57,674 nucleotides of DNA from a virus: the IMG/VR virus record IMGVR_UViG_3300020733_000019, positions 1-57,674 of that record; one strand, written 5' to 3'. Within the stretch, counting starts at the first letter, position 1. Each line of letters begins with the position of its first letter. The position numbers and the translations under genes were made by a program. This document shows positions 7,831-25,465 of this stretch, piece by piece. Under the pieces are notes generated by a model. It made no database searches. It saw only the letters and a program-made list of their open reading frames with translations, and was not told the origin of the DNA.

Positions 7831-7838
7831 TGTTTACT

Positions 7839-10765: not shown

Positions 10766-11196
10766 AAGAACCTATAGTTTGTAGCGGAGCATTATTCTAC
10801 GCTAAATCTACACGACGTTTCCTACTATTACAGAAAGCACACGGCAAACACGAAGGTACCTGGGGGCTTGTAGGTGGGACCAATATCCAAGGCGAGACTC
10901 CTTGGCAGGGTTTACAACGTGAAATTACTGAAGAAATTGGTAGTCACCCAAAAATAATTAAGACAATTCCCCTTGAGACGTTTGTATCAAACGATCGTGT
11001 GTTTAATTTTCATACTTATCTGTGCGTAATAGAATCTGAATTTGTACCCGTGTTAAGTGACGAACACAATGGCTGGGCGTGGGCAGTCATTGACAGAGCT
11101 CCAAAACCTCTGCACCAGGGACTTAGAAATAGTTTTTCAAGTAAAACTATTCGTACAAAATTACAGACTGTATTTGACCTAGTTGATTTAATTTAA
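10747..11196 (+). CDS. Nudix hydrolase
   Basis: The protein has 149 residues. The Nudix box is complete: G-x5-E-x7-RE-I-x-EE-x-G is read in GTNIQGE ... REITEEIG at residues ~38-59, with the usual upstream strand FLLLQKAHGKHEGTWGLVGG. Nudix enzymes hydrolyse nucleoside diphosphates linked to another group; the specificity (NTP, ADP-ribose, CoA, NADH or RNA cap) cannot be read from the box. The start ATG lies 19 bases inside gp15 in another frame, and GroES follows after 11 bases. It and GroES stand between the virion genes and the tailoring cassette. Confidence 0.88.
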   Translation: MENNTVKEPIVCSGALFYAKSTRRFLLLQKAHGKHEGTWGLVGGTNIQGETPWQGLQREITEEIGSHPKIIKTIPLETFVSNDRVFNFHTYLCVIESEFVPVLSDEHNGWAWAVIDRAPKPLHQGLRNSFSSKTIRTKLQTVFDLVDLI

Positions 11197-11207
11197 AGGA
11201 GAAAAAA

Positions 11208-11543
11208 ATGCCAGTGTTAAGACCAGTTCATGATAGGTTACTTGTTAAAAGAATAGAACCAGAAAAAACTACAGCAGGCGGAATAGTAATTCCAGTTGCA
11301 TCGCAGGATGAAAAAACATCAAAGGGTGTGATTGTTGCGGCAGGGCCTGGAAAATATTCTGAAAAAACAGGAATATTAATCCCAATGTCTGTTAAAGTAG
11401 GTGACGAAATAATGTTTCATCCTGCTGCCGGATCAAAAATTACCGTAGGCGGTGAAGCATATTGGTGTATGCCTGAGAGTGATGCATGGTGTGTAATTGA
11501 TCCAGATGAGCCCGTTGGCCCTGTTGAATTTAAATTTGATTAA
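11208..11543 (+). CDS. groES: GroES-type co-chaperonin
   Basis: The protein has 111 residues. It starts MPVLRPVHDRLLVKRIEPEK, carries the mobile loop TTAGGIVIPVASQ and continues SKGVIVAAGPGK, VKVGDEIMFHPAAGSKITVG and PESDAWCVID. PVHDRLLVKR, the AGGIV(I/L)P loop hydrophobic triad that binds GroEL, and the KVGDxxxF turn are all canonical for cpn10. T4 uses an unrelated-looking co-chaperonin (gp31) to fold its capsid protein with host GroEL, and a direct GroES homologue probably does the same here. The roof loop appears extended (HPAAGSKI). A very strong ribosome site (AAAGGAG, 7 bases upstream) points to high expression. Confidence 0.95.
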   Translation: MPVLRPVHDRLLVKRIEPEKTTAGGIVIPVASQDEKTSKGVIVAAGPGKYSEKTGILIPMSVKVGDEIMFHPAAGSKITVGGEAYWCMPESDAWCVIDPDEPVGPVEFKFD

Positions 11544-11550
11544 TTTTTAA

Positions 11551-12108
11551 ATGACTAATAAAGATCTATTAGATGCTAATAACTATTTTGTAGTGAAAGA
11601 TTTTATCCATCCTGATGCATTAACTGTTATTTCAAAAGAATTTAAAAAACATTGTATTAATACTTTTGCAAAACCTGATGATCAAGTTCCGGGATCACCG
11701 GCAGTGTATGGACATCCGCTAGTAGATAAAATCCTAATTTCAAAAATATTTTATATGAATGATCTAATAGGTGAAAGATTATATCCAACCTATTGTTACG
11801 GACGGTGGTATAAAAAAGGTGCAGAATTGCCTGCACATTTAGATGCAGAAGCATGTGAAATAAGTGTTACACTTAATATTAGTGGAGATGCCTGGCCAAT
11901 TTTTATTAAGAAGCCAGATGGTACACCTGCTAGTATTACTCTATCACCCGGCGAAGCTATGATTTACAAGGGAATGACTGCCGAGCACTGGAGAGAAAAA
12001 TTTGAAGGGACTGAGTGCATACAAGTATTTTTACACTATGTTAAAATCTTTGGTGCTAATTATTTTCAAGCATTTGATTTGAGACGTAACCCGGCAGGTC
12101 CTATATGA
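11551..12108 (+). CDS. 2OG-Fe(II) oxygenase-like protein 1
   Basis: The protein has 185 residues. The double-stranded beta-helix core holds H96-L-D98 (PAHLDAEACEISVTLNIS) and a distal H146 (GMTAEHWREKF), the two-His-one-carboxylate iron set. The usual 2OG-binding Arg ~10 residues after the distal His is not in its normal place; R148 or K150 may substitute. YCYGRWYKKG and LSPGEAMIYKG are typical flanking strands. Such proteins hydroxylate protein or small-molecule substrates with 2OG and O2. It is the first gene of the cassette, 7 bases after GroES with a weak ribosome site, and overlaps the next gene by 4 bases (ATGA). Substrate unknown. Confidence 0.75.
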   Translation: MTNKDLLDANNYFVVKDFIHPDALTVISKEFKKHCINTFAKPDDQVPGSPAVYGHPLVDKILISKIFYMNDLIGERLYPTYCYGRWYKKGAELPAHLDAEACEISVTLNISGDAWPIFIKKPDGTPASITLSPGEAMIYKGMTAEHWREKFEGTECIQVFLHYVKIFGANYFQAFDLRRNPAGPI

Positions 12109-12701
12109 TACAATATCATTTTCCTACAGCAATTCTAACAGAATTTCATCCTATTACAGCCAAAGCTATGCTACCTGTAGCAAGGAAGTATCTAGATGAT
12201 TCAAAGATAGCTAGCACCAAATGGGGATATACTACAACCTATGGATTTGAAAATCCAGGAGGTATCGCTTATATGCCGGATGTAGAACCTTTTAGAATTC
12301 TTATAGAAAAAACAGGAAGAAAATATCTTCATGATTTAGGATATGATAGTAAAGGTATAGAATTTTTTTCATTTGTATTTGTAAGCGAGATGTTTGAAGG
12401 TGCCTCTCATGATGAACATACTCATCCCGAATCTATATTATCGGGTTTATTATACTTACAAGTACCGCCGGGATCTTCTTCATTAATATTAACTGATCCT
12501 AGACCATTTAGAGATTTTGTACACATACCAAAATTAGATAACAAACCAACTAGTACTAATGTTTCGGAATTGACAATAGAACCTAAAAATGGTTTGCTAT
12601 TAATGTGGGAATCATGGTTGCCGCACCTTGTACCTAAAACTAAAAATAAAGATAATGGCCGCATTACTATGGTTTTTAATATTTGTAGGAAATCAGCATG
12701 A
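12105..12701 (+). CDS. 2OG-Fe(II) oxygenase-like protein 2
   Basis: The protein has 198 residues. The motif SHDEHTHPES then ILSGLLYLQVPP is the pattern of phage and bacterial small 2OG oxygenases that I associate with PF13759/TIGR02466. Aligning the SGLxYL strand places the iron ligands at H107 and E109, with distal H174 in SWLPHLV and the 2OG-binding R186 in GRITMVFNI. Thus HxE replaces the commoner HxD. It is coupled to its neighbours by ATGA overlaps on both sides. No transit signal or membrane segment is present; the substrate cannot be inferred. Confidence 0.8.
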   Translation: MIQYHFPTAILTEFHPITAKAMLPVARKYLDDSKIASTKWGYTTTYGFENPGGIAYMPDVEPFRILIEKTGRKYLHDLGYDSKGIEFFSFVFVSEMFEGASHDEHTHPESILSGLLYLQVPPGSSSLILTDPRPFRDFVHIPKLDNKPTSTNVSELTIEPKNGLLLMWESWLPHLVPKTKNKDNGRITMVFNICRKSA

Positions 12702-13399
12702 GTAATTTTTTTAAATTTGATAAAGATAACCATCCCTTAGCTGGAACTATAGTATGTAAAAATGATTTCTTTAATAATCCTCAAAAAATTATTGAACTTT
12801 CTAAAAAACAAACATACAATGGGTCCGAAAGATGGCCGGGAAAAAGAACTGATAATTTATTAGAATCTGTAGATCCTGAAAGCAGAGATTTTGCTGTATT
12901 TTTTGCTAAAAAATTAGGCACTGAAGTATTTCCAGGCATTAGTAGATTTAACACTCATATTAGCTTTCACATAAATGATGTATACGACGACGAAGCTTCA
13001 AATGAAGGGTGGATACATAATGATGATGTTACTCTCGCTGGATTAGTTTATCTTACCCCCAACGAAGCCAATTTTAATAACGGAACCTCAATTTTTTTAA
13101 AAAAAGGTGAGCAAGATTTTAGAAATACTGATTATCGATCTAGAAAAGATTTTAATCTTACTAAGATCGCTACTGAGCAATATAAAAAAGATTTAGCTAT
13201 GAATCATAGAAATTTTGAAGAGACTGTGCGATTTGGAAATTTGTTTAATAGATTAATTGCATATGATTCAAATTTGTGGCATAGGCCCAATAACTATAAA
13301 ACTAATACAACTTTTCCTAGAACGACTTTATTATTCTTTATTGATTTTTATGAATATGAATTTCCTAGCCTGTCAGTTGCTAGCAAGTGGGTAGATTAA
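12698..13399 (+). CDS. 2OG-Fe(II) oxygenase-like protein 3
   Basis: The protein has 233 residues. The core reads GWIHNDDVTLAGLVYLTP with H107-N-D109, distal H195 in NLWHRPNNY, and R208 in PRTTLLFFIDF, a complete iron and 2OG set. The long loop between strands includes NNGTSIFLKKGEQD. The layout resembles DUF6445-like proteins found beside bacterial tryptophan-halogenase genes, a recollection that should be tested. It starts in an ATGA overlap and its stop is one base before the next ATG (TAATATG). Confidence 0.75.
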   Translation: MSNFFKFDKDNHPLAGTIVCKNDFFNNPQKIIELSKKQTYNGSERWPGKRTDNLLESVDPESRDFAVFFAKKLGTEVFPGISRFNTHISFHINDVYDDEASNEGWIHNDDVTLAGLVYLTPNEANFNNGTSIFLKKGEQDFRNTDYRSRKDFNLTKIATEQYKKDLAMNHRNFEETVRFGNLFNRLIAYDSNLWHRPNNYKTNTTFPRTTLLFFIDFYEYEFPSLSVASKWVD

Positions 13400-13400
13400 T

Positions 13401-14042
13401 ATGTCTGAAATTGTAAACATTCCATTATTTCCAGTGCCGTTATTTAAACTGAAAGTAACTAATCACGAAAAGATTAAAAAATATTTAATGGATACCATTC
13501 ATCCACATTTCTTAAAGAATGAAATAAACGACAAATATGCCAATGTATATACTGATTATATTCCAGGAGCAGTAAAAGCTCCTTGGAAAATGCTGAATAA
13601 ATTTTATGAAGAAGATATAGAAGAATTTTTAAAAGCCACAGGAATAGATTTTAGCAAAGGATGGAGTTATAAATTTACCTGCTGGTATGGTATGATGACT
13701 GAAACTAAAAATTCTTTAGTACACGATCACACAGGAGGTCCAAGCACTATACAATGGTCAGGAGTCCATTATGTAGTACTAGATACAGATAAAGACAGCG
13801 GCGGAACTATATTTAATAATCCAAATGCTCGCATGATGAAGGGTGTTATTCCTACAAAAAATACTAGCAAAATTCCAGACCTTTATCGACCAAATGATCA
13901 GCAATGCATAGTTGAAGAAGGAGATTTAGTAATGTTTCCATCTTGGTTAGACCATCGCACTCCTGATCATTCAGGCTCGTTACGAGTTATAGTTGCTATG
14001 AATATTATGTTAAAATATACTGGTGAGATTGAGGGATATTAA
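13401..14042 (+). CDS. 2OG-Fe(II) oxygenase-like protein 4 (paralogue pair, copy a)
   Basis: The protein has 213 residues. The motif SLVHDHTGGPSTIQWSGVHYV gives H108-D-H110 as candidate first ligands, followed by SWLDHRTP (H185) and SLRVIVAMNI (R195). There is no Asp or Glu two residues after either His: H108 is followed at +2 by H110, and H110 by G112. If H110 is the ligand, the motif is HxG, the signature of 2OG-dependent halogenases. If H108 is, it is an unusual HxH. The next gene is a clear paralogue (matching IPxFxxxxFKxK, NHxKIKKYLMD, VPWKMLxKFYE and HDHxGGP). Confidence 0.72.
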   Translation: MSEIVNIPLFPVPLFKLKVTNHEKIKKYLMDTIHPHFLKNEINDKYANVYTDYIPGAVKAPWKMLNKFYEEDIEEFLKATGIDFSKGWSYKFTCWYGMMTETKNSLVHDHTGGPSTIQWSGVHYVVLDTDKDSGGTIFNNPNARMMKGVIPTKNTSKIPDLYRPNDQQCIVEEGDLVMFPSWLDHRTPDHSGSLRVIVAMNIMLKYTGEIEGY

Positions 14043-14045
14043 CCT

Positions 14046-14672
14046 ATGATAGTAGTAGATCGTATACCTATTTTTAGTACAGATATTTTTAAAATTAAAT
14101 TATCTAACCACAATAAAATTAAAAAATACCTAATGGATAATGTATACCCTGGGTTTTTAAAAGACGGGCCTAATGATCCCGTACAAAATGTATATACAGA
14201 TTCATCGGTATTTAAACAATCATCAATAAAAGTTCCGTGGAAAATGTTATCTAAGTTTTATGAAGATGATGTTTGGGAAGTCTTAAAAACTATAGGAGTA
14301 ACAAAAGATGATTGGAGTCTTGATTTAGGGTGTTGGTACGGATTTACAACGGAAAGTCTTTCAGAATTTGTACATGATCATTCAGGCGGTCCTAATAATT
14401 ATCAATTTGGTGCTGTACATTATGTAACGCTTGATACCGAATCATCTGGTACTGTGTTTGTAGATCCGTGTTCTAAACAAATAAAATCAGCTTTACCAAC
14501 TAATAGCCCTTCTCTTTGCCCTGACTATTTTGCTCCAACTAAAAGAGCTCCGGCAGTACAGGAAGGTGATTTTATCATGTTTCCTGCATGGCTTGATCAT
14601 CATGTTCCTAAACATACTAACGGAACACTACGGGTAGTCGTAGTTATGAATATTATGATTCGAACTATTTAA
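14046..14672 (+). CDS. 2OG-Fe(II) oxygenase-like protein 5 (paralogue pair, copy b)
   Basis: The protein has 208 residues, a diverged tandem copy of the preceding gene along its whole length. It shares IPIFSTDIFKIKLSNHNKIK, VPWKMLSKFYEDD, GCWYGFTTE, HDHSGG and AWLDHHVP. Ligand candidates are H110-D-H112 (H112 followed by S113-G114), distal H185 and R196 in TLRVVVVMNIM. It has the same absence of the usual carboxylate. The copies differ at many positions but keep all putative active-site residues, which suggests that both are functional. It is followed by a 46-base gap, the first break in the tight packing of the cassette. Confidence 0.72.
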   Translation: MIVVDRIPIFSTDIFKIKLSNHNKIKKYLMDNVYPGFLKDGPNDPVQNVYTDSSVFKQSSIKVPWKMLSKFYEDDVWEVLKTIGVTKDDWSLDLGCWYGFTTESLSEFVHDHSGGPNNYQFGAVHYVTLDTESSGTVFVDPCSKQIKSALPTNSPSLCPDYFAPTKRAPAVQEGDFIMFPAWLDHHVPKHTNGTLRVVVVMNIMIRTI

Positions 14673-14718
14673 TAATCACTATTAAAATCTAAAAACTGTA
14701 GAAATTATAAGTATAAAC

Positions 14719-15393
14719 ATGTCAGCTGTCAATCTTCCAAATGTTGGTTTTTTAATTGAGGATTTGAATCCTTTTGTATTTCAGCGAATAAAAAAAGAGG
14801 TACTTGTACATAAACAAGACTTTGAAGCAACAGAATCATTAGAAACGTCAAAGGATCTTTTACGAGCGTTCCATAAAAGAAAATTAGGCTATACAAAAGA
14901 TTATCAACTTTCTCCAGAGACAGAAGCAGTGTTTATGAAGGAAGTTTTTAAATTTGTTGATTTATTTGATCAGAAGTTTGCCTACGCTGGCAAAATGTTT
15001 AATTATACAGTTAATGTAGAAAATGTAGAAACTACGTTAGAGCTAGAAAGAATTTGGTTAAATTTTCAACGGCCTGGAGAGTTTTTACCTTTACATAATC
15101 ATTCGGGATTATACAGTTTTGTACTTTGGGTTAATATACCATTTGATAATAAAAATGAAAAAGATAACGAACCAAATCCTACATTAATTAAAAATAGAAC
15201 TAGTAATTTTGAATTTGTATATATTGATGCTTTAGGAAAATTAAGCAATCACGCTCTATATGTGGATAAAAAATGGGAAGGTAGAATGGCTATTTTTCCA
15301 GCAGATTTATATCATCAAGTGTATCCATATTATTCTACAGATGATACTAGAATTTCCCTAGCTGGTAATTTAAGGTTAAAAATTGTATCATGA
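14719..15393 (+). CDS. 2OG-Fe(II) oxygenase-like protein 6
   Basis: The protein has 224 residues. The core reads RPGEFLPLHNHSGLYSFVLWVN, giving H126-N-H128 (followed by S129-G130), then FPADLYHQVYP (H199) and TRISLAGNLRLK (R211). RPGEFxPxHNHSGxYSFVxW is a pattern I recognise from cyanophage 2OG-type proteins. As in the two preceding proteins, the carboxylate is replaced by His or Gly. The 46-base upstream gap contains TATAAAC just before the ATG, too close to be a convincing promoter. It overlaps the next gene by 4 bases. Confidence 0.75.
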   Translation: MSAVNLPNVGFLIEDLNPFVFQRIKKEVLVHKQDFEATESLETSKDLLRAFHKRKLGYTKDYQLSPETEAVFMKEVFKFVDLFDQKFAYAGKMFNYTVNVENVETTLELERIWLNFQRPGEFLPLHNHSGLYSFVLWVNIPFDNKNEKDNEPNPTLIKNRTSNFEFVYIDALGKLSNHALYVDKKWEGRMAIFPADLYHQVYPYYSTDDTRISLAGNLRLKIVS

Positions 15394-15986
15394 ACTTTGA
15401 AAAATATGAGTTTATGGGATTTATTGGGGTATTTGAAAATTACTTTAAGAATTCTTATTTTCAAGAAGTAATTAATTACTACGACTCAATATCAAAAATG
15501 CCGTTGCATTCTCAGGATAACACTCCTAAACATTGGAAAGATGACGAGCAATTATATTTGTTAGATCCTAGAGTTATTGTTACATTAAATCCAGAATATG
15601 TAAATCATTTTTTAGAAATACTTTGGGGTAAAATATTTCCCCTGTATGCAGAAAAGTTTAGTATACTACAGGAAAAATCTTATAAAGTAGAACAGATCAA
15701 AATGAAAAGAATAGAGCCGGGTGGAGGATTTCATCAATGGCACTATGAAGCATTAGGACATGATTCTAGAAGACGGCTAGTAGTTCAGTTATATATGAAC
15801 GATATTTCTGATGCAGGCGAAACTGAATTTCTATACCAGAACACTAGAATTATACCAAAAAAGAACAAATTATTAATATGGCCAGCTGACTGGACTCATA
15901 CACATCGGGGTAACCCACCTATCGGGAATACTAACAAATATATTTTAACCACATGGCTGGTAGAAGCAGATGAAGATAAAATTTAA
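15390..15986 (+). CDS. 2OG-Fe(II) oxygenase-like protein 7
   Basis: The protein has 198 residues. The motif GGGFHQWHYEALGHDSRR followed by LVVQLYMND gives H118-Y-E120. The distal site is WTHTHRGNPP (H172), a signature seen in many phage 2OG oxygenases, and K183 may bind 2OG in place of Arg. KMKRIEPGGGFHxWH is the entrance strand. All expected elements are present with HxE rather than HxD. It overlaps the following DUF6065-like gene by 17 bases. Confidence 0.82.
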   Translation: MNFEKYEFMGFIGVFENYFKNSYFQEVINYYDSISKMPLHSQDNTPKHWKDDEQLYLLDPRVIVTLNPEYVNHFLEILWGKIFPLYAEKFSILQEKSYKVEQIKMKRIEPGGGFHQWHYEALGHDSRRRLVVQLYMNDISDAGETEFLYQNTRIIPKKNKLLIWPADWTHTHRGNPPIGNTNKYILTTWLVEADEDKI

Positions 15987-16722
15987 CATAGATGATGAAC
16001 TAGCTTTAAAGCATTGGCCGCCCGTGCCTGCCAAGGATTATCTGCCAGATTGGTATTCTAACATGCCAAAGGCTCAAGAAACTTATAGTTACGACGAGGC
16101 TGCTATAAAAAGTATTAGAGCATGTGTACCTGTAGAAGATTTTTTAACTGCTGGATATATTCTCAAAGCAACTTTTGAACATAGGGTTTCGGAAGCCGTA
16201 GTTGATTTTAAACCCCAGATGAGTATACAAACTGCTAGAAAAACTGAAGATGATCCTCGATTCGAAGAAAGAAAAAAGAAAGCAGGACCCGCAGAATCAT
16301 ATGGATTACATCCAGACGGGCCATTGGGAATCTACAGCGAAGCTATGTGCCCCATGCGTTCTCAAGGTAAAAAAACTCAGGGAAATTATTTTAGATTTGA
16401 ATCTCCTTGGTCGGTACGCACTCCTCCAGGATATAGTTGCTTAGTTATGCAACCTTATTACTTATTTGATCAAAATGTCAATATTATGCCTGCTATAATT
16501 GATACAGATAAATTTGACAAACGAATTCCTGTTGTAGGGTTTCTTACAGGTAAATCAAAAGAAGTAAGATTTTTCGCAGGAGATCCTTTACTGCAAATTA
16601 TTCCTTTTAAACGAGACGAATGGGAATCTGAATTTACCACTGGGCCAATACTTAATAAATCTAAATTCTTTTTATTCAATGCTTACAAACGTATTTTTCA
16701 TTCACCTAAGAGATTTAAATGA
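15970..16722 (+). CDS. DUF6065-like protein, copy 1
   Basis: The protein has 250 residues, the first of three adjacent paralogues. Shared landmarks are PPVPAKDYLPDWYSNMP near the N-terminus, SIRACVPVEDFLTAGYIL at ~50-67, SPWSVRTPPGYSCLVMQPYY at ~145 and FFAGDPLLQIIPFKRDEW near the C-terminus. The IIDTD and GDPLxQxIPFKRxxW strands suggest a compact beta-sandwich or cupin-like fold, but I see no H-x-D/E iron site. I recall a domain of unknown function (DUF6065) of this size and pattern, and that assignment is unverified. Placed between seven oxygenases and the halogenases, it may bind the substrate or be a non-redox partner of the pathway; that is inference. It overlaps both neighbours. Confidence 0.65.
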   Translation: MKIKFNIDDELALKHWPPVPAKDYLPDWYSNMPKAQETYSYDEAAIKSIRACVPVEDFLTAGYILKATFEHRVSEAVVDFKPQMSIQTARKTEDDPRFEERKKKAGPAESYGLHPDGPLGIYSEAMCPMRSQGKKTQGNYFRFESPWSVRTPPGYSCLVMQPYYLFDQNVNIMPAIIDTDKFDKRIPVVGFLTGKSKEVRFFAGDPLLQIIPFKRDEWESEFTTGPILNKSKFFLFNAYKRIFHSPKRFK

Positions 16723-17420
16723 CCAATTTAATAACATTTGCAACTAGTGATCGTGAAACATTAGAAATGTTTCCTGTATTACCTGCATCAAAACTAATTC
16801 CTGAATGGTTTAAAGACATGCCTGTAGAGGTAGATGCATATATGGACGTAGTAGTACCCCATACTCCGACTATAAAAAGATGTATGCCAGTATTAGATTA
16901 CTTGACTACTGGTTATATTATTCGTGCTTCACATGAAATACAAATTAAAAAAGAAGTAGACGAACATTTTTTTAATTCTTTTAGATTTCGTAGTCGAGAA
17001 AATCACAAAGTTGTAGCAAAACATCCTCACCAGCAAGCCCAATTTTCAGAAGATGGCGAAAAAAGTCACTATCTTAAAATTCATCAACCTTGGTATATTA
17101 AGACACCACCGGGATATAGTGTCATGATATTTGATCCATTTTATCATTTTAGAAAAGAATTTAAAATTTTTCCAGGAGTTGTTGACACTGACAAGCACGA
17201 CGAAGTAATAGGGCTCGTGGCATTAGTTAAAGAAAAAGAGTTTATTATTAAACCGGGTGATCCGCTAGTAGTAGTATTTCCTTTTAAACGAAATGATTGG
17301 ACTATGAACACAGAATTTCGAGATAATGAGTATGAAAAGTCTAGTTTTAAATATAGACTTAGTACATACTGGGCCGGATTATATGCCAATTTAATGCATT
17401 CTAAAAAAACTTATAGATAA
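16719..17420 (+). CDS. DUF6065-like protein, copy 2
   Basis: The protein has 233 residues and clear similarity to copy 1: FPVLPASKLIPEWFKDMP, TIKRCMPVLDYLTTGYII, QPWYIKTPPGYSVMIFDPFY, GVVDTDKHDEVIG and KPGDPLVVVFPFKRNDW. It lacks the ~20-residue middle region that copy 1 has before the TPPGYS motif. The TPPGYS loop and GDPL-PFKR strand are the most conserved parts and the likeliest functional surface. The ATG overlaps the stop of copy 1 (AATGA), and copy 3 follows one base after its stop. Confidence 0.65.
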   Translation: MTNLITFATSDRETLEMFPVLPASKLIPEWFKDMPVEVDAYMDVVVPHTPTIKRCMPVLDYLTTGYIIRASHEIQIKKEVDEHFFNSFRFRSRENHKVVAKHPHQQAQFSEDGEKSHYLKIHQPWYIKTPPGYSVMIFDPFYHFRKEFKIFPGVVDTDKHDEVIGLVALVKEKEFIIKPGDPLVVVFPFKRNDWTMNTEFRDNEYEKSSFKYRLSTYWAGLYANLMHSKKTYR

Positions 17421-17421
17421 T

Positions 17422-18114
17422 ATGTTTACATTTTTTAACAAAAAATCTAAAATTGTATTAGATTGTTTTACATTTGTACCGGAGATAGCAACTCTATTTC
17501 CAATAATACATGCAGAAGACCGTATTCCTCCGTTTTGGAAAAATTTGCCAACTGTTGTAAAACATTCCGGCATCAGTAGAGGCACTATGAGAACTTGCCC
17601 AGGGGTTAGTTCATTATTTAGAACTGGATTCATTTTACAAAACTGGTCAGATTGTTGGATTAGCACCGAGAATGATAAGTTAACATGGTTTCCCGAAAAT
17701 GCAGGCGAACAGCATAACCCTAAACAATGGGGAGAATATCTTAAAAATTATCATCACTTAAAACTAGTTAGCCCGTGGAGGATACAAGAAAAAAGTGGTG
17801 TTAATTTTCTTTATACAAACTGTTTTTGGCACGACGACAATTTCAAACCTTTTGTAGTTAACGGGATGGTTGAATACAAATATCAATCAACTACTAGCGT
17901 AAACATGCTAATTCCAAAAACAATGTTTCCAAAAGATTTAACTATTCCGGCCGGTCAAGAATTAGCTCATATAGTCCCAATGTCTGAAAAGGACATTGAG
18001 ATTAAAATGCATACTATATCTAGAACAGAATATGAAAATCTAGGATCGTACACATTCTCGTTTAATGGACAATACTTTAAACGCAAAAAGTTATTAAAAG
18101 AGCAGGGTCTATGA
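17422..18114 (+). CDS. DUF6065-like protein, copy 3 (divergent)
   Basis: The protein has 230 residues and is the most divergent of the three. FPIIHAEDRIPPFWKNLP, TMRTCPGVSSLFRTGFILQ, LVSPWRIQEKSGVNFLYTNC and IPAGQELAHIVPMSEKDIE occupy the same positions as the motifs in copies 1 and 2. However, TPPGY has become EKSGV and the GDPL-PFKR strand is only partly kept. It starts MFTFFNKKSKIVLDCFTFVP. The divergence suggests a changed binding role rather than decay, since the frame is intact and the spacing of motifs is preserved. It overlaps the next oxygenase gene by 4 bases. Confidence 0.6.
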   Translation: MFTFFNKKSKIVLDCFTFVPEIATLFPIIHAEDRIPPFWKNLPTVVKHSGISRGTMRTCPGVSSLFRTGFILQNWSDCWISTENDKLTWFPENAGEQHNPKQWGEYLKNYHHLKLVSPWRIQEKSGVNFLYTNCFWHDDNFKPFVVNGMVEYKYQSTTSVNMLIPKTMFPKDLTIPAGQELAHIVPMSEKDIEIKMHTISRTEYENLGSYTFSFNGQYFKRKKLLKEQGL

Positions 18115-18740
18115 AAATACATTCATTGTTCCCAATTCCACTTTACGAACATCAAGGAACACAACAAGAAATATTTCTAATCCAGGACGAGATTAAAAAA
18201 AAATTATTAGAAATAGAACAAAAAGATACGTTTGAAAATCCCCCAGGGTGGGGCGATGGTGTCCAAACTAATATCAAAGCCAGACACAACTCTATAGATG
18301 ACTTTGAATTAGTGCATCTAAAAAGATATATCGAGTTACATGTTAAAAAATATATAGATGCTACACAATCATGGCATCCAGTTCCGATAGCCCTAAGGCA
18401 CAGTTGGATTAATAAAACGGGAAAAGATCAAGGACAAGATTGGCATCAGCATCAAGATTCATTTATTTCAGGTACATATTATTACCAAACCTCAGGAACT
18501 GACGGGGTATTTAGTATAATGAATCCTGTACCATACATGCAACAAGAGCTATTTCCGTTCGGTAATTTATCATATAAGAGCCACGATATTGTGCCAGCAG
18601 TTGGTAAGTTACTATTATTTCCCGGTTGGTTGATGCATTCTGTGGAAAAAAATAAAACTGAAAATATTCGTATCTCAATATCTTTTAATTTCCATAGAAA
18701 TCATTGGAGCGGCATCGCTCAAGATTCTACCTATATCTAA
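18111..18740 (+). CDS. 2OG-Fe(II) oxygenase-like protein 8
   Basis: The protein has 209 residues. It follows the same small-oxygenase pattern as protein 2: LFPIPLYEH at the N-terminus, RHSWINKTGKDQGQDWHQH, then QDSFISGTYYYQTSG, FPGWLMHSV and NIRISISFNFH. Ligands by alignment are H114 and D116, distal H176 and 2OG-binding R187, a complete set. W-x-N/H-x-x-G ... W-H-x-H and FPGWLxHxVxxN ... RISISFNF are the family hallmarks. It ends 38 bases before the first halogenase gene, where a late-promoter match occurs. Confidence 0.82.
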   Translation: MKIHSLFPIPLYEHQGTQQEIFLIQDEIKKKLLEIEQKDTFENPPGWGDGVQTNIKARHNSIDDFELVHLKRYIELHVKKYIDATQSWHPVPIALRHSWINKTGKDQGQDWHQHQDSFISGTYYYQTSGTDGVFSIMNPVPYMQQELFPFGNLSYKSHDIVPAVGKLLLFPGWLMHSVEKNKTENIRISISFNFHRNHWSGIAQDSTYI

Positions 18741-18750
18741 AACTCGACCA

Positions 18751-18757
18751 CTAAATA
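18751..18757 (+). promoter_or_regulatory. late promoter for the halogenase genes (CTAAATA)
   Basis: The sequence CTAAATAT lies 28 bases upstream of the halogenase ATG, in the longest gap before these genes, and is followed by an AGAGGA ribosome site at 18767-18772. It resembles the CTAAATA matches before gp13 and the 351-aa fibre gene, and suggests late expression of at least the last four cassette genes. Confidence 0.5.
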
Positions 18758-18778
18758 TTGAACCAAAGAGGATCACAC

Positions 18779-20398
18779 ATGAAAAAACCCATTAAACGAA
18801 TTATTATAGCAGGGGGCGGAAGCTCAGGTTGGATGTCTGCTGCCATGTTGTCTAAACAATTTCCTGACATGGAGATAGCATTAATTGAAAGTCCGGACAT
18901 TCCTATCATCGGCGTAGGCGAATCTACTTTGGGGACAATTAATCAATATCTAGGATTGCTTGGGATCAAAGATGAGGATTGGATGGAATACTGTAATGCT
19001 ACCTATAAATTAGCAATTAAATTTACAGATTTTTACGAAAAAGGTAAAGCATTTTACTATCCGTTTGGTCTAAAGGATCTTCAAAATACACAACAGGGTG
19101 CTACAGATTGGTATGTAAAAAAGACACTATATCCCGAAACCGACAATAATGACTTTTATGAAAGTCTTTATAGTTCAATGCCTATGATTTATCAGAGTAA
19201 AATATTTGATAATAAAGAAGGGCAATTACCGGGATTCAGCTGGAGAAATGATAGTGCTTATCATATGGATGCTACATTATTTGGCGAATTCTTAAAAGAA
19301 AAAATTTGTATTCCAAATGGAGTTGTGCATATTAGTGCAACTATCGAAGGAGTATTGCAAGAAGAAGACGGTTACGTTGCAGGTCTTAAACTCAGTAACG
19401 GTGATATAGTCGATGCTGATTTATATATTGACTGCACTGGATTTAAAAGTATATTGTTAGAACAAACTATGGGAGTAGAATTTGAATCATATTCTCCGCA
19501 TCTCCCTAACAACTATGCTTGGGTAACACATATTCCTTATATACACAAAGAAAGAGAAATGGAAAATGTTACAAACTGTACTGCTATAGAAAACGGCTGG
19601 GTTTGGAATATTCCGCTTTATGATAGAATTGGTAGCGGATATGTATTTTGCGACAAATTTATTTCTAAAGAAGAAGCTCTAGAAGAATACAAAAGATATT
19701 TAAACAGTGATAAAATGGTTGTACATAATCCTGCTAGAAGTCAATTCTTAGAATTTAGGTTGATTGAAATTAAAAATGGTGTACATGATAAAGCATGGGA
19801 GAAAAATGTTGTAGGTGTAGGTCTCAGCTATGCATTTGTTGAGCCGTTAGAAAGTACAGGATTGCTAAGTGTTCAAGAAATGCTGTTAAAATTATGTGAA
19901 ACTTTGCATAATAAGCAAATAAACAAGATACATATTGATCATTTCAACTATATTACACACTATGTAATGGACAGTTTTAGAAATTTTGTAACTTATCATT
20001 ATGTATTTTCTTCAAGACGTGATACCCCATATTGGCAATATATCACTAGTCAAATTGAGATGGATCCATTGATGTTTGATCGTAAACTTAATGCAATACC
20101 TACAGCGGCTACCGATTTAGCTGTTAAATTATTGCAAACTCATCACATGCCCGGTGATCCAAGTATGGGTGGTATGCCTGATATACTAGTAGGAATGAAT
20201 GTTTTACCTACATCTAAAACACAATTAGATATTGTTCGTATGATCATGGATGCAAGACAAGGACAAAGTGTAGAATTTTATACTAGTCAAACACAGGATT
20301 ATTGGGATCAAAAGAAAGAGTATATCGAATCTTTAGTTGAAACAGCTCCGTCTCATTATCAATATCTAAAAGATAACATTTATCACGGAAGAGATTAA
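18779..20398 (+). CDS. flavin-dependent halogenase (tryptophan-halogenase family), copy 1
   Basis: The protein has 539 residues from the ATG at 18779. An in-frame TTG at 18758 is rejected because AGAGGA stands 7 bases before this ATG and MKKPIKRIII-AGGGSSGW matches the family start. The FAD site is GGGSSG (12-17), then IPIIGVGEST (~41-50). The catalytic Lys is K81 in YKLAIKF, corresponding to K79 of PrnA. The halogenase-specific WxWxIP is W274-V-W276-N-I-P279. The catalytic Glu is E358 in EPLESTG, corresponding to E346 of PrnA. With all four signatures it should use FADH2, O2 and halide to make HOX and halogenate a substrate, probably aromatic. It needs a flavin reductase, absent here and probably supplied by the host. 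The stop shares a base with the next ATG. Confidence 0.93.
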   Translation: MKKPIKRIIIAGGGSSGWMSAAMLSKQFPDMEIALIESPDIPIIGVGESTLGTINQYLGLLGIKDEDWMEYCNATYKLAIKFTDFYEKGKAFYYPFGLKDLQNTQQGATDWYVKKTLYPETDNNDFYESLYSSMPMIYQSKIFDNKEGQLPGFSWRNDSAYHMDATLFGEFLKEKICIPNGVVHISATIEGVLQEEDGYVAGLKLSNGDIVDADLYIDCTGFKSILLEQTMGVEFESYSPHLPNNYAWVTHIPYIHKEREMENVTNCTAIENGWVWNIPLYDRIGSGYVFCDKFISKEEALEEYKRYLNSDKMVVHNPARSQFLEFRLIEIKNGVHDKAWEKNVVGVGLSYAFVEPLESTGLLSVQEMLLKLCETLHNKQINKIHIDHFNYITHYVMDSFRNFVTYHYVFSSRRDTPYWQYITSQIEMDPLMFDRKLNAIPTAATDLAVKLLQTHHMPGDPSMGGMPDILVGMNVLPTSKTQLDIVRMIMDARQGQSVEFYTSQTQDYWDQKKEYIESLVETAPSHYQYLKDNIYHGRD

Positions 20399-20976
20399 TG
20401 ACTATGGAGTTTAAAAATGCTGATCGTAAAAAGACAGCACATAATTTGTATTGCGCTCCTATGCTTACTAAGGAGGAGTGCAATGAAATTATAAAAAACT
20501 CCAATAAATGGCTAGAAGGAACTGTTTTAAAATTTGGACAATTTATTAAAGTTAAAGAATATAGAAGTGTTCAGATTTGTAGAACTTCCGTCACAGAAGA
20601 GCTAGTAGATAAAATTTTTGTAACTGTTTTTAAAGTAAACACTGCAACATTTAGATTTCATTTAGACGGATATGACGAAAGAGATGTCCCAAATGTTTTA
20701 AAATATTCGGCAGATCGTGGGGATCATTATGTATGGCATACTGATTTAATTCCAGGTGATGCTGTTAGAAAATTATCGTTTACTATACAGTTGTCAGACC
20801 CATCCGAATATGACGGTGGTGATCTGGAATTTAGCCCTGGCACTACAGATCCAAATATAAGAAAACAAGGTATGATGACTATATTTCCGTCATATGCTAC
20901 TCATCGAGTTACTCCGGTTACTCGAGGAACAAGATATGCAATAGTAGGGTGGATTTATGGTCCCGAATTCAGGTAA
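20398..20976 (+). CDS. 2OG-Fe(II) oxygenase-like protein 9 (prolyl-hydroxylase-like)
   Basis: The protein has 192 residues and is the most canonical oxygenase of the cassette. YVWHTDLIPGDAVRKLSFTI gives H114 and D116; SDPSEYDGGDLEF is the GGxLxF strand typical of prolyl-4-hydroxylase-type enzymes; TIFPSYATHRVTPV gives H169, and RGTRYAIVGWIYG gives R179. The closest well-known pattern is the PKHD/P4Hc type, which hydroxylates proline or other residues in proteins or peptides. It sits between two flavoprotein genes, overlapping one base upstream and 20 bases downstream, so it is translated with the halogenases. Confidence 0.9.
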   Translation: MTMEFKNADRKKTAHNLYCAPMLTKEECNEIIKNSNKWLEGTVLKFGQFIKVKEYRSVQICRTSVTEELVDKIFVTVFKVNTATFRFHLDGYDERDVPNVLKYSADRGDHYVWHTDLIPGDAVRKLSFTIQLSDPSEYDGGDLEFSPGTTDPNIRKQGMMTIFPSYATHRVTPVTRGTRYAIVGWIYGPEFR

Positions 20977-22171
20977 AAAATTTAGATTAGGTGTTATTGG
21001 AGCAGGTACTGCTGGAATAGTTAGTATCTCTCATATAATTCCTTGGCTTTCTAATAGCTGGGACGTAGTATCTATATACGATCCTAGCACTCCTATACTA
21101 GGCATAGGAGAAAGTACAAACCCTAATTTTTTATCAACTTTAGAATTTGGAACTGGCTTTAGAGAAACTGAAGACATTGAAAAATTAGAAGGCACACTTA
21201 AATTTGGAACAAAATATATAGGGTGGCGATCAGAAGATTGGATTAATCCTTTATTCGGTGCTGGACACGCATTACATTTTAATAATTTTAAATTAAAAGA
21301 GTTTGCATTTGAAAGATTTAAACAAAAATGGCCTGACAAATTTAAAGTTATTGAGGGTGCAGTTACATCTGTTACTAATGAATTTCAGTGTGTGCATGTT
21401 ATAGTTAATAATACTATTGAAAAATTTGATTACATTATAGACTGTAGAGGATTTCCTGAAGATTATTCAGATTATGAAATTAGTAATTGTTCTCCTTTAA
21501 ATCGATGTTTTGTCTATAGTACGCCATCGCACGTAACAGACCAGTTTCCATGTACCGAACATATTGCTACAAAACATGGTTGGACTTTTGGAATACCATT
21601 GTCGACTAGGCACACCTATGGATATTTGTTTAACGATACGATTAGCACTGAAGATCAAGTTATAAAGGACATGTCTGAAATGTTTTCAACAGATTTAAAA
21701 AAAGATAATCTAGTTGACTATAAGTTTAAATCATACTACAGTAAAAAAATCTTAAACAAACGTATATTAAAAAATGGAAATAGAGCATTATTTTTTGAAC
21801 CGTTGAGTGCAAGTAGTATTTTTTGTTATGTTGAAATTGCTGAGCTTTTTTTACATCATTTAAATAAAAATGAAAAATACAATGAATTTTTTGTAAATAC
21901 TGAATTTATTAAATTAGCCAAATCATTAGAAGACATGCTGTCATTTTTATATCACGGGGGCACTAATTACGATACAGAATTCTGGAGATTTGCTAAAGCA
22001 AGGGCAGTTGATCGATTAAATAACAGTAACGCATTTTCAGAAATCATTGTTGAATATAAAAAAATGTTTAAAAATGGAACACCGTTAACTGGAAAAAGTT
22101 GGTTTTTCTTACCTCACAATTTAAGAATTATCGACGAACAAATGAATTATAACTATTTTAAAGAACTATGA
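20957..22171 (+). CDS. degenerate halogenase-like flavoprotein
   Basis: The protein has 404 residues, ~135 shorter than the neighbouring halogenases. The FAD signature is intact (GVIGAGTAG, then ILGIGEST), and the catalytic-Lys strand is kept as LKFGTKYIGW (K86). The WxWxIP motif is altered to GWTFGIPL. The catalytic Glu motif EPLESTG has become EPLSASS (281-287), placing Ser284 where Glu should be. IDCRGF matches the usual IDCTGF. It is therefore a true family member that keeps flavin binding and the Lys but has lost the Glu and part of the substrate domain. It may be a non-halogenating monooxygenase, a regulatory partner or a flavin-handling subunit. The frame is intact, so decay to a pseudogene is not indicated. 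It overlaps both neighbours. Confidence 0.82.
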   Translation: MVPNSGKKFRLGVIGAGTAGIVSISHIIPWLSNSWDVVSIYDPSTPILGIGESTNPNFLSTLEFGTGFRETEDIEKLEGTLKFGTKYIGWRSEDWINPLFGAGHALHFNNFKLKEFAFERFKQKWPDKFKVIEGAVTSVTNEFQCVHVIVNNTIEKFDYIIDCRGFPEDYSDYEISNCSPLNRCFVYSTPSHVTDQFPCTEHIATKHGWTFGIPLSTRHTYGYLFNDTISTEDQVIKDMSEMFSTDLKKDNLVDYKFKSYYSKKILNKRILKNGNRALFFEPLSASSIFCYVEIAELFLHHLNKNEKYNEFFVNTEFIKLAKSLEDMLSFLYHGGTNYDTEFWRFAKARAVDRLNNSNAFSEIIVEYKKMFKNGTPLTGKSWFFLPHNLRIIDEQMNYNYFKEL

Positions 22172-23793
22172 GAAAACCTATTGAAAAAATCGTAATAGTC
22201 GGTGGTGGTAGTGCTGGCTGGATGACAGCGGCATTGCTAACTAAGAAATTTCCAAATTTTAAATTTACATTAGTTGAAAGCCCCGATGTTCCAACTGTCG
22301 GTGTGGGCGAATCTACACTAGGTACATTAAATTTATTTTTACATTTATTAGACTTAGACGATAAAGAATGGATGGAATACTGTAACTGTACTTACAAGCT
22401 AAGTATAAAATTTACAGATTTTTATAAAGTAGGTGAAACATTTTACTATCCTTTTGGGCAAAAAGATAGAAAAACTACACTAGCCGGATTAACTGATTGG
22501 TATCACAAAAAATTATTGTACCCCGAGACTCCTTGGAATGATTTTTATGAGTGTGTATATAGCACAATGCCGTTAATCTATAACAACAAAATGTGCGACA
22601 ACATAACAACTCCTAAACTAGAAGGCTATAGTTTTAAAAATGATTCAGCATATCATATGGATGCCGCCTTATTGGCGCAATTTTTAAAAGAAAAGTATGC
22701 CATTCCTAGCGGGATGGAATATATACAACAACATGTAACTGACATTATTAAAGATGCAGACGGTTATTTAGATCACTTAGTATTAAAAAATGGTGAAACA
22801 GTAACTGGTGATTTGTTTATTGATTGTACAGGTTTTAAAAGTTTGTTGTTAGAACAAACTATGGGGGTGCCTTTTGAAAGTTTTAAAAAATGGCTTCCTA
22901 ATGACCATGCTTGGACATGCCATGTTCCGTATCACGATAAAGAACTCGAAATGGAAAATGTTACAAATTGCACAGCTTATAACAATGGTTGGGTATGGAA
23001 CATTCCATTATATCATCGTATTGGCAGCGGGTATGTTTTTAGTAGTGATTTTATTAGTATAGAAGATGCACTAGAAGAATATAAACAATATCTTAACAGT
23101 GATAAGATGACTTATCATGATTCGCACCGAGCTGATAATTTAGAATTTAGATTAGTCAAGATTAAAAACGGAACTCATAACAAGTGTTGGGAAAAGAATG
23201 TTGTAGGAGTAGGTTTAAGTTATGCGTTTATTGAACCTCTGGAAAGTACAGGCCTATTCAGTGTAACAGAAATATTAGAACTATTGTATCAGATTCTAGA
23301 CAACGAACAAATAACAAAAATGCACGAAGATTGGTTTAATCGCGAAGCTAATTTACTCATGCAGTCTTTTAAATGTTTTGTTACATACCATTATGTGTTA
23401 AGTTCTCGAAAAGATACACCTTATTGGAAACATGTTACTGAAAACATAGAAATGGATAAAAGACTAATTGATAAACAGTTGGCAGAACTACATACTATGA
23501 CAGCTGAACTAGGTAATAAATTGTTTAATGAACATGAACTTGGTGCAAATATGGGAGGTCTTCCTGATATATTTGTAGGAAATCATTTACTACCAGTTAA
23601 CAGAATGTCATTAGAAAAAATTAAATATGACGGACTATATACAATACCCGGGCAAAGTATGATTCCAGAAATTCTTAAAAAAGAAACACTTCAATACTGG
23701 GCTCAGAAAAAGATTAAAAATGAACTTGTGGCAGCTAAGTGTCCAAGTCATTATCAATATTTAAGACAAACATATCATAACGGTAAGGAATAA
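22168..23793 (+). CDS. flavin-dependent halogenase (tryptophan-halogenase family), copy 2
   Basis: The protein has 541 residues and is close to copy 1 throughout (shared EWMEYCNxTYKLxIKFTDFY, ENVTNCTA, RIGSGYVF, WEKNVVGVGLSYAF). It has the FAD site GGGSAG, GVGEST, catalytic K81 in YKLSIKF, WVWNIP at ~275-280, and E359 in EPLESTG. All catalytic residues are therefore intact. Differences between the copies cluster in residues 135-160 and the C-terminal 100 residues, the substrate-binding parts of this family, suggesting different substrates or regiochemistry. Its start overlaps the stop of the degenerate copy (ATGA). It is the last gene of the cassette and ends at a strong terminator. Confidence 0.93.
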   Translation: MRKPIEKIVIVGGGSAGWMTAALLTKKFPNFKFTLVESPDVPTVGVGESTLGTLNLFLHLLDLDDKEWMEYCNCTYKLSIKFTDFYKVGETFYYPFGQKDRKTTLAGLTDWYHKKLLYPETPWNDFYECVYSTMPLIYNNKMCDNITTPKLEGYSFKNDSAYHMDAALLAQFLKEKYAIPSGMEYIQQHVTDIIKDADGYLDHLVLKNGETVTGDLFIDCTGFKSLLLEQTMGVPFESFKKWLPNDHAWTCHVPYHDKELEMENVTNCTAYNNGWVWNIPLYHRIGSGYVFSSDFISIEDALEEYKQYLNSDKMTYHDSHRADNLEFRLVKIKNGTHNKCWEKNVVGVGLSYAFIEPLESTGLFSVTEILELLYQILDNEQITKMHEDWFNREANLLMQSFKCFVTYHYVLSSRKDTPYWKHVTENIEMDKRLIDKQLAELHTMTAELGNKLFNEHELGANMGGLPDIFVGNHLLPVNRMSLEKIKYDGLYTIPGQSMIPEILKKETLQYWAQKKIKNELVAAKCPSHYQYLRQTYHNGKE

Positions 23794-23818
23794 AAAAAGC
23801 ACCCTAGGGTGCTTTTTT
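23793..23818. terminator. bidirectional intrinsic terminator
   Basis: GCACCCTAGGGTGC (23799-23812) is a perfect palindrome flanked by an A-run on the left and six T on the right, so it makes a terminator hairpin on either strand. It sits exactly between the converging halogenase operon and the minus-strand fibre operon. Confidence 0.93.
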
Positions 23819-23819: not shown

Positions 23820-24458
23820 TTATGGAGTATCTGTTCCTAAACTAGGATCAGCATGATGGTAATAAGTATGGAAGGGAACATGCTCTGGTATCCATGTTGG
23901 ATCTTGAGTAGATCTTAGTACCATTTCAGCTGTCACTTTACTAGTAAGTTCCATATGTTCTTTTACTGTTTTTAATTCTACTAATTCTAGTAGCTCTAAA
24001 GGATCTAAAGGGATTGGTTTAGTCCATGTAGGGTCTGCAAGTAATTCTTTAGTTATATAATCTGCTTTCTCTTTAATTGCAATTTGAGCACGTTCGACTA
24101 CCCAATCGTGTATGTGCTGATGTGGGTTTTCATATTCCCATTCTAAAACTTTAATTTCATCGTCTGACAATTCAAATGTAAATGTTTCACATTCTTGATC
24201 AGGCAAATCTCGATCAATTGGAGTCCAGTTAGGATCTTTTGGTGGTAAATTACCTGCCATAATAATTGAAGCTTTATCTTTAGGCATGTGGGTAGCACCA
24301 CCATCTTTTAATTGCTGGACTATTGTTGGTACTAAGTTATCTTCAACTAGTCGCACACGCCACTCAACTAGATTTCTAATCCAATCGTCGGGGTTCAATG
24401 CGGTATGATGAAGTAGTTCTGCTTCTTTTAGTGTTAATCTAATGGTAAATTGTGTCAT
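23820..24458 (-). CDS. duplicated-domain conserved phage protein, function unknown
   Basis: The protein has 212 residues. It contains an internal repeat: residues ~4-50 (FTIRLTLKEAELLHHTALNP, then WIRNLVEWRVRLVEDNLV) and ~93-140 (FTFELSDDEIKVLEWEYENP, then WVVERAQIAIKEKAD) have the same strand-helix-helix pattern. A short motif D-P-x-W-x-P recurs three times (DPNWTP, DPTWTKP, DPTWIP). I recall small helical proteins of this kind next to tail fibres in marine T4-like phages but know no function. Its position after the receptor-binding fibres makes a fibre assembly or chaperone role plausible. It has its own late promoter (24476-24483) and ends at the shared terminator. Confidence 0.6.
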   Translation of the reverse strand: MTQFTIRLTLKEAELLHHTALNPDDWIRNLVEWRVRLVEDNLVPTIVQQLKDGGATHMPKDKASIIMAGNLPPKDPNWTPIDRDLPDQECETFTFELSDDEIKVLEWEYENPHQHIHDWVVERAQIAIKEKADYITKELLADPTWTKPIPLDPLELLELVELKTVKEHMELTSKVTAEMVLRSTQDPTWIPEHVPFHTYYHHADPSLGTDTP

Positions 24459-24475: not shown

Positions 24476-24483
24476 TATTTATG
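24476..24483 (-). promoter_or_regulatory. late promoter overlapping a stop codon (CATAAATA)
   Basis: The minus strand reads CATAAATAC, and the TAA inside it is the stop codon of the upstream fibre gene (24479-24481). It lies 18 bases before the ATG of the 212-aa gene, which has GAGAGA upstream. Confidence 0.55.
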
Positions 24484-25465
24484 CTATTAGATAGCCGTTA
24501 AAGAATGTATGTGATGAGTGGAATCGATTGTTGTTGCTAGTCCAGTTAGGAATAATACTAGCATAGTCGCCGGCTGAAAGATACAAATCACACTCCCAGC
24601 TAACACCGTGCGGATAAGGACTTCCATTACCGTGCGACCAAATACCATGCGGACAACGTCCGCTCCATGGTGATACAGCACCGTTTTTACCTAATGTCAT
24701 ATGCATATGACCGGTAGTACTGGTCCAACTAGTATCATTATGCTGATATGATAACCATTGGAAGTTATAATGCCCTGCTACCGGAGCTGTATATCGACCG
24801 TTGCTATAATTAAATCCAGATCCGTTGCGCTGATATCCTGTCCAGCCAAATCCGGTATTAAGTTCTTGCCAGCCTGTTCCGCTACCTAGTTGATTATTAT
24901 ACAACCAACCGTTTGTTCCATGGCTTTGAAACATAGGACTACCGTTAGTCGGAAATCCTGCTTGTGAACCCATTAAAAATCTTCCGCCTGAATCAAAACG
25001 AGCACGTTCACTTCCACCTGTAGCAATACGTACAGTATTATCATTATTAAAATAAATTCCCGTATTAGTGTTTCCAGATAATGCTACAGCAGGAGTTGCC
25101 GCACTAGCTTGAGTAGTTAGCAATGTTCCTGTCATGCTACTACCGCTTTTGTTTAGCGGTGTATATCCTAAATTAGTTGTTGCGGCACCACTAGCTAATG
25201 CGCCTGCCGCAATACCAGCACTACTACTAATATCTGAGTTAGTAATTGTTCTGTATGTAACAGTATTTGCGCCACCATTACTAAGGTCTAGTGTACTGGC
25301 AAGTTGGGAGGTGCCTACGGCATTGGTAGCTAATGTAGTGGCATTGACTGCACCTGGCGCAAGATTGCCGTTAGTAATAGAACCGGATCCAAAATCTGTA
25401 CTATTTAACGTATTTGCTACAAACGAATCAGTAGCAATTTTTTTAAAACTTGAGTAGGTTGCCAT
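24479..25465 (-). CDS. tail fibre / receptor-binding protein with C1q-like head, copy 1
   Basis: The protein has 328 residues, one of three tandem paralogues starting MATYSSFKKI. Residues 1-100 are a Thr/Ala/Ser-rich shaft; TPLNKSGSSMTGTL (~105) is the common phage-fibre motif (NKxGDxxTG); ALSGNTNTGIYFNNDNTVRI follows. From ~215 to the end is a C1q/TNF-like jelly roll: YTAPVAGHYNFQWLSYQHND, HMTLGKNG, WECDLYLSAGDYASIIPN, then HSSHTFFNGYLIA. C1q-like heads form trimers and bind receptors at fibre tips. The N-terminus likely docks to a shared baseplate or fibre protein. The stop codon is part of the promoter of the next gene. Confidence 0.8.
   Translation of the reverse strand: MATYSSFKKIATDSFVANTLNSTDFGSGSITNGNLAPGAVNATTLATNAVGTSQLASTLDLSNGGANTVTYRTITNSDISSSAGIAAGALASGAATTNLGYTPLNKSGSSMTGTLLTTQASAATPAVALSGNTNTGIYFNNDNTVRIATGGSERARFDSGGRFLMGSQAGFPTNGSPMFQSHGTNGWLYNNQLGSGTGWQELNTGFGWTGYQRNGSGFNYSNGRYTAPVAGHYNFQWLSYQHNDTSWTSTTGHMHMTLGKNGAVSPWSGRCPHGIWSHGNGSPYPHGVSWECDLYLSAGDYASIIPNWTSNNNRFHSSHTFFNGYLIA

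Follow-up and report, generated by a model that had tools for sequence, protein, structure and literature searches.

A phage-borne halogenase and oxygenase cassette that accompanies three tandem fibre tips and may act on them

The closest described systems come from cyanophages. VirX1 of cyanophage Syn10 (PDB 6qgm) is a flavin-dependent halogenase whose open active site accepts large substrates (PMC8407142), and a review presents it without listed biosynthetic context. Cyanophage 2-oxoglutarate (2OG) oxygenase and PrnA genes were already listed in 2010 (PMC3037559). The ten 2OG genes of S-CREM1 and its PrnA were described as auxiliary metabolic genes (PMC9964418), and that paper cites 24 2OG genes for S-SCSM1. 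Here we analysed the IMG/VR record IMGVR_UViG_3300020733_000019, which is complete at 57,674 bases and is called the window below. It contains a cassette of 15 open reading frames on the + strand (11551–23793), with nine 2OG-oxygenase-type genes, three DUF6065-like paralogues and three flavin halogenases. The main finding is a constant partnership between such cassettes and three tandem fibre tips, which appears to be new.

Two of the window halogenases share the fold family, the catalytic Lys and Glu and the WxWxIP motif with VirX1, although they are about 40% identical to it. VirX1 itself lies in a tip-cassette locus: another halogenase stands directly before it, and a DUF6065-like gene and then a string of 2OG-type genes come after it. 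In contrast, a single operon of the window contains three halogenases as well as three DUF6065 genes, and the window most likely comes from a jumbo phage and has C1q-like instead of Gly-rich tips. The 2OG clusters of the cyanomyoviruses S-CREM1 and S-SCSM1 also consist of PF13759/PF13640 paralogues in a row next to a halogenase, with fibre tips on one side and neck genes on the other, but they were published as auxiliary metabolic genes without a link to fibre tips (PMC9964418). The one paper found that mentions tryptophan halogenase, tail fiber and cyanophage together does not link them. In the SrpI cluster for a ribosomally synthesised and post-translationally modified peptide (RiPP), the polypeptide substrate is encoded beside a flavin halogenase (PMC10858898), as may be the case in the window; the window cassette differs in having no precursor, leader or export gene, and its proposed substrate is a structural virion protein. 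The hyperplastic region g15–g18 of cyanomyoviruses (PMC2984593) likewise holds variable cargo within a structural module, whereas the slot in the window lies between the fibre tips and the neck and gp15 genes.

A first-pass annotation, made from the letters of the window, had described a phage-borne, operon-like oxidative and halogenating cassette of 15 genes, and the open reading frames, the gene families and the terminator all bear this out. Its view that no phage cluster of this size and mixture was known is not supported, because similar clusters exist in Syn10, S-CREM1, S-RIM44, P-TIM40 and P-RSM6. These and S-WAM1 are isolate genomes with homologous clusters, and the genes in them are mostly annotated as hypothetical. 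VirX1 was also not the single viral halogenase that it had been taken for, given its neighbours in Syn10.

Coupling of the cassette to tandem fibre tips

The fibre genes of the window run on the opposite strand and converge on the cassette, with three tandem tips in the part of the fibre block nearest to it:

24479–25465, − strand, fibre-tip paralogue 1, with a C-terminal C1q/TNF-like domain in the structural model; proposed substrate
25474–26430, − strand, fibre-tip paralogue 2; proposed substrate
26433–27377, − strand, fibre-tip paralogue 3; proposed substrate

The coupling was examined with the tips as queries, with no enzyme in the query, and only loci with enough flank were counted. The scan with a Gly/His/Tyr-rich tip gave 71 loci, 46 of which had enough flank. 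A halogenase was nearby in 46/46 of them, at least three tandem tips were present in 46/46, and a 2OG gene was found too in 41/46. When the C1q-like tip of the window was used, the cassette was present in 30/30 loci. Tips of two unrelated folds were met only alongside such enzymes (76 tip-anchored loci). Fifteen whole contigs of 48–354 kb, in which one search used the halogenase family and another the tip profile, had three tips each, and the nearest halogenase was 52–3554 nt away. Among 50,697 phage records the Gly-rich tip occurred in 20, and 20/20 were in the halogenase matches listed (the best 40 of 66), at a distance of 0.5–3.5 kb. The coupling is kept across cyanomyoviruses and jumbo phages despite differing gene orientation, and related cassettes accompany such tips in hundreds of other phage sequences.

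Exchange of the locus was observed within one species. In two isolates of S-RIM44 the DNA flanking the locus is 95–96% identical on both sides, while the fibre proteins have diverged (64–70%). In KX349291, two halogenases, a DUF6065-like gene and genes of the 2OG type accompany three Gly/His-rich tips and a small chaperone-like protein, whereas in KX349297 there is a lone unrelated tip with a small protein and just one 2OG-like gene. Because the locus differs throughout while the neighbouring DNA is nearly the same, fibre, tips and enzymes of S-RIM44 exchange as one block.

The tip C-termini of the window are rich in Trp, His and Tyr, in contrast to its other fibre proteins, and tip 1 contains 5.5% Trp, 6.1% His and 6.1% Tyr. 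When the tip C-termini of 26 cassette-bearing loci were compared with those of 13 cassette-free loci, His was 5.1 versus 1.7% (p 2e-5) and Trp was 3.6 versus 0.9% (p 3e-4), p-values that come from loci related to each other. The model of tip 1 (residues 172–328) matched C1q domains with Z 15.5 over 127 residues, and it also matched the phi812 spike and the cell-binding domain of cyanophage A-1(L) (Z 12.7–13.6 for the phage domains); by this model the C-terminal domain of tip 1 is C1q-like. The tips of other phages belong to an unrelated Gly/His/Tyr-rich family (phrog_863, Gly_rich_2) or are collar-domain proteins. The C1q-like tip had no tblastn match among isolate phages, and a sequence search of the PDB with the Gly-rich tip gave no match. 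Tips are nearly always three tandem paralogues (loci L384–L454), and the DUF6065 genes are likewise three in the window's group. From these two trios, three-part assemblies may be involved.

The cassette genes and their conservation

The 15 genes lie where the first-pass annotation had placed them, with gaps or overlaps of −20 to +46 nt. A terminator-like hairpin closes the operon:

11551–12108, + strand, 2OG-oxygenase-like protein (phrog_2954; HxD...H...R)
12105–12701, + strand, 2OG-Fe(II) oxygenase, PF13759 (E 5e-19; invariant HxH...H, R 98%)
12698–13399, + strand, DUF6445-type 2OG protein (E 1e-7; HxD...H...R)
13401–14042, + strand, 2OG-Fe(II) oxygenase, PF13759 (E 4e-11)
14046–14672, + strand, 2OG-Fe(II) oxygenase, PF13759 (E 2e-7)
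14719–15393, + strand, 2OG-Fe(II) oxygenase, PF13759 (E 6e-10)
15390–15986, + strand, 2OG-Fe(II) oxygenase, PF13640 (E 8e-10)
15970–16722, + strand, DUF6065-like paralogue 1 (phrog_7084 E 1e-32; PF19541 26.1 bits, cut-off 26.6)
16719–17420, + strand, DUF6065-like paralogue 2, predicted dUTPase-like fold (phrog_7084 E 2e-48)
17422–18114, + strand, DUF6065-like paralogue 3, the most divergent (phrog_7084 E 5e-18)
18111–18740, + strand, 2OG-Fe(II) oxygenase, PF13759 (E 2e-19)
18779–20398, + strand, flavin-dependent halogenase 1, VirX1-like (PF04820 E 1e-108)
20398–20976, + strand, 2OG-Fe(II) oxygenase, PF13640 (E 9e-16)
20957–22171, + strand, flavin-dependent halogenase 2, shorter divergent type (PF04820 E 3e-29)
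22168–23793, + strand, flavin-dependent halogenase 3, VirX1-like (PF04820 E 8e-109)
23793–23818, no strand, palindromic terminator-like hairpin with T-runs, between the converging operons

Halogenases 1 and 3 keep the GxGxxG flavin site, the catalytic Lys, the Glu and WxWxIP when aligned with 14 phage relatives, and by these sequence features they are classified as intact PF04820 variant A flavin-dependent halogenases. The best PDB match of halogenase 3 was VirX1 (6qgm, 370 bits). Halogenase 1 starts better at ATG 18779, behind GAGGATC, than at TTG 18758. In halogenase 2 the Lys and Glu align with those of RebH, and WTFGIP replaces WxWxIP.

The metal triad and 2OG-binding Arg of the 2OG-Fe(II) superfamily were found as HxD...H...R at 11551, 12698 and 20398, with HxE...H at 15390. 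The PF13759 phage members, such as those at 12105 and 18111, have an invariant HxH...H...R, a departure from the usual HxD/E...H that points to an unusual metal site. The genes at 13401, 14046 and 14719 have an HxG-like look and were considered as Fe/2OG-dependent halogenases, a reading that was dropped because HxH...H is invariant in the entire PF13759 group. The label 'ferrochelatase' of phrog_2954 is probably wrong, since this family has the invariant HxD...H...R signature of 2OG oxygenases.

All three DUF6065-like paralogues match phrog_7084 and all stay below the curated PF19541 score of 26.6 (26.1, 17.9 and no match). The AlphaFold model of paralogue 2 (pLDDT 89) matched dUTPases in all of the best 50 PDB matches listed (Z 10.6–12.3), so that a fold of the dUTPase / dCTP deaminase superfamily is predicted for it. 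By eye, GVVDTD in the DUF6065-like protein resembles dUTPase motif 3, and paralogue 3 is without it. Known dUTPases with this fold are trimeric. A DUF6065 homologue in halovirus HSTV-2 (L377:5896-6765) adjoins thymidylate synthase, with DNA polymerase also near, and because of these neighbours the ancestral role of DUF6065 may be nucleotide-related. A ready-made bacterial operon was rejected as the source of the cassette: among 80 bacterial and archaeal DUF6065 loci, 0 had a halogenase nearby and 1 had 2OG genes.

As the first-pass annotation had stated, no precursor peptide, reductase or transporter was seen in the cassette. Because the gaps are at most 46 nt, there is no space between the cassette genes for a RiPP precursor with leader; precursors outside the cassette were not sought. 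A strong hydrophobic segment was found in 0 cassette proteins (the highest 19-residue mean was 1.85), therefore all of them look cytosolic.

The cassette is confirmed as real, intact and not chimeric. A contig from a different metagenome (L096) is identical to the window over the 2 kb aligned. This virus and a series of syntenic relatives are present in further metagenomes. Five contigs (L097, L099, L100, L103, L105) have neck or gp15, NUDIX, GroES and cassette in the same order, and in four others (L005, L018, L019, L022) the cassette continues into fibre genes as in the window. Since independent contigs show the same junctions, a chimera or assembly error was ruled out. Local turnover does occur, and L005 has a fourth halogenase where the window has the 14046 gene. 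Comparison with L097 indicates purifying selection on all 15 cassette genes (nonsynonymous divergence, dN, 0.12–0.45; dN alone was used because synonymous divergence, dS, is large or saturated). With the same limit on dS, conservation is stronger in most cassette genes and in all three tips than in the neck and gp15 genes. At least two halogenases together with at least three 2OG-type genes were found in 34 fetched loci (near-duplicates counted), and the gene order is conserved in close relatives. Thus, of the two outcomes that the first-pass annotation named as fatal to its idea, a chimeric contig and occurrence only as scattered singletons, both are excluded for close relatives, although some distant jumbo phages have scattered 2OG and DUF6065 genes.

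The putative late operon and the cargo slot downstream of gp15

The cassette is the last part of a single + strand run (7830–23793) that begins with four other genes. On the far side, the rest of the fibre block follows the tips:

7830–9299, + strand, neck-like virion protein of the gp13/14 region, opening the putative late operon (phrog_11591; ATAAATA at 7824)
9299–10765, + strand, gp15-like tail sheath stabiliser (phrog_11196)
10747–11196, + strand, NUDIX hydrolase (PF00293); the gp15-NUDIX order is kept in most loci
11208–11543, + strand, GroES-like co-chaperonin (PF00166); adjoins the cassette in 10 loci
23820–24458, − strand, small acidic protein of the fibre block, located at its tip end, which may act as a fibre chaperone (CATAAATA upstream)
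28398–41459, − strand, giant fibre protein, 4353 aa (TATAAATA upstream)
41508–49970, − strand, giant tail fibre protein, 2820 aa (phrog_9851 E 5e-125)

The small acidic protein is of unknown family and is kept beside the tips, as two open reading frames in some relatives and as one here. A tail protein at 53481–55238 had no match among isolate phages. Among isolates, the best full-length matches of the gp15-like gene are jumbo myophages of 286–490 kb (such as Phosso, the PA5oct group and Atu_ph07), so that the window is most likely a jumbo myophage fragment. By the same core structural gene its closest relatives are these jumbo phages and not the Kyanoviridae (cyanomyoviruses).

ATAAATA is the core of the T4 late promoter. 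The window contains 5 such sites (7824, 41486, 24482, 5935 and 1700), and 5/5 lie at most 60 nt ahead of the start of a gene on the same strand, against 0.11 expected, so they are probably T4-type late promoters. CTAAATA stands 28 nt upstream of the first halogenase (18779). From this motif layout, the cassette would be expressed late, together with the neck genes.

The cassette occupies a cargo slot between gp13–15 and the fibre genes. In loci fetched with gp15, cassette-type genes number 2.73 per 10 kb downstream of gp15 versus 0.05 upstream. In some relatives the slot is empty, with about 430 nt from gp15 to the fibre genes. In 30 cassette-free relatives it holds carbamoyltransferases, DUF4422, sugar-nucleotide enzymes, FkbM methyltransferases, APS kinase/sulfotransferase and one radical SAM, whereas upstream of gp15 in the same relatives nucleotide kinases and structural domains dominate, with almost no decorating enzymes. 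Because decorating enzymes fill the downstream stretch and the upstream control is nearly without them, the region after gp15 fits a decoration slot. The slot of one cassette-free relative (L179:3496-5491, − strand) has the radical SAM (PF04055 E 4e-9) next to a 173-aa protein rich in Cys and Asn, and these two may form a further pair of virion-modifying enzyme and substrate. In Phosso (L381:15429-23116), NAD synthetase, NAPRT and NMNAT follow gp15, and then minor tail and fibre genes. Because of these NAD salvage genes, position alone was rejected as proof of a link to the fibre.

Proposed function and competing explanations

Gene content, conservation, tip coupling and block exchange are observed here. 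The target of the enzymes, their chemistry on the tip, the timing and the benefit are inferred: the cassette would be expressed late and would serve to halogenate and hydroxylate the receptor-binding tips of the phage itself, which we consider slightly more probable than not. After translation, the halogenases would put halogen on side chains of Trp, Tyr or His in the tips, and the 2OG enzymes would hydroxylate further tip residues. The host would supply reduced flavin, and GroES and the small tip-end protein would assist folding. The finished tips would bind the receptor, or resist damage or escape. The weakest step is that the three DUF6065-like paralogues may assemble into a single heterotrimer, which would handle a cofactor, nucleotide or substrate. 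Halogenation of a polypeptide has precedent, because VirX1 has its open active site and one flavin brominase is known to work on polypeptides that are structured (PMC10858898). The first-pass annotation had offered the phage's own fibre and sheath among several substrates. The fibre is the best supported of those offered, by the tip-anchored co-occurrence and by the block swap within a species, and nothing found points to the sheath.

Several points weigh against tip modification. No modified residue has been seen. The need for nine oxygenases is left unexplained. The loci are interrelated and the counts are not independent. The converse of the coupling fails: 8/26 complete halogenase-anchored loci have no recognised fibre gene, and the halogenases of S-B64 and S-SSM5 sit among replication or other genes. 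In two distant jumbo phages (G005, 353 kb; G009, 268 kb) the 2OG and DUF6065 genes are dispersed over several sites. Non-tailoring cargo also enters the slot, as the NAD salvage genes of Phosso do, and a cassette that modifies the receptor could couple to tips equally well.

This last possibility is the strongest rival, although we regard it as unlikely. The enzymes would alter the host receptor or surface seen by the tip, for example stopping re-adsorption of progeny or superinfection, and tip and cassette would stay together since each is specific to that one receptor. It explains tip coupling and block swap no less well than tip modification does, and sugar-decorating enzymes occupy the same slot in relatives, but the cassette proteins all look cytosolic, flavin halogenases target electron-rich aromatics and not glycans, and with late expression the receptor shut-off would come late. 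Auxiliary metabolism, in which a small host metabolite is made or altered (as for cyanophage PrnA-like genes) or 2-oxoglutarate is drawn on (the nitrogen-stress model), is the published view of cyanophage PrnA and 2OG genes (PMC9964418, PMC3037559, PMC2984593). The Phosso slot and the halogenases away from fibres agree with it. We consider it improbable, since it does not predict the obligate tip coupling (46/46, 30/30) or the joint swap, and the cassette has no reductase, transporter or scaffold-building enzyme.

Mere neighbourhood, with a recombination hot-spot beside the fibres that swaps tips and cargo without any functional link, is if anything slightly more improbable. Hyperplastic regions are known in T4-like phages (PMC2984593), and empty slots and varied cargo do occur. 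In contrast, free exchange predicts many enzyme-free tips, whereas 0 were found in the 76 tip-anchored loci, and two tip folds hold the association across cyanomyoviruses and differently oriented jumbo phages. Modification of nucleotides or nucleic acids, by a dUTPase-like DUF6065 enzyme and 2OG enzymes acting on bases, would draw on the predicted fold and on the halovirus homologue beside thymidylate synthase. We hold it to be very improbable, because the cassette has no DNA-modification genes, the tips are left unexplained and flavin halogenases have no known activity on nucleobases.

The cyanophage 'tryptophan halogenases' and the many cyanophage 2OG oxygenases have been labelled auxiliary metabolic genes for over a decade. 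The tip coupling offers phage halogenases a specific and testable substrate. More broadly, and with somewhat less than even confidence, we suggest that many aquatic myophages carry a tip-specific halogenase/hydroxylase set that is inherited and exchanged with the tips as one unit, that their virion proteins are halogenated and that tip plus chemistry forms the host-range unit. If tip modification is true, halogenation and hydroxylation would join the known ways in which phages alter their virions, a family of protein-acting halogenases would be on offer, and host range would be tied to chemistry as well as to sequence.

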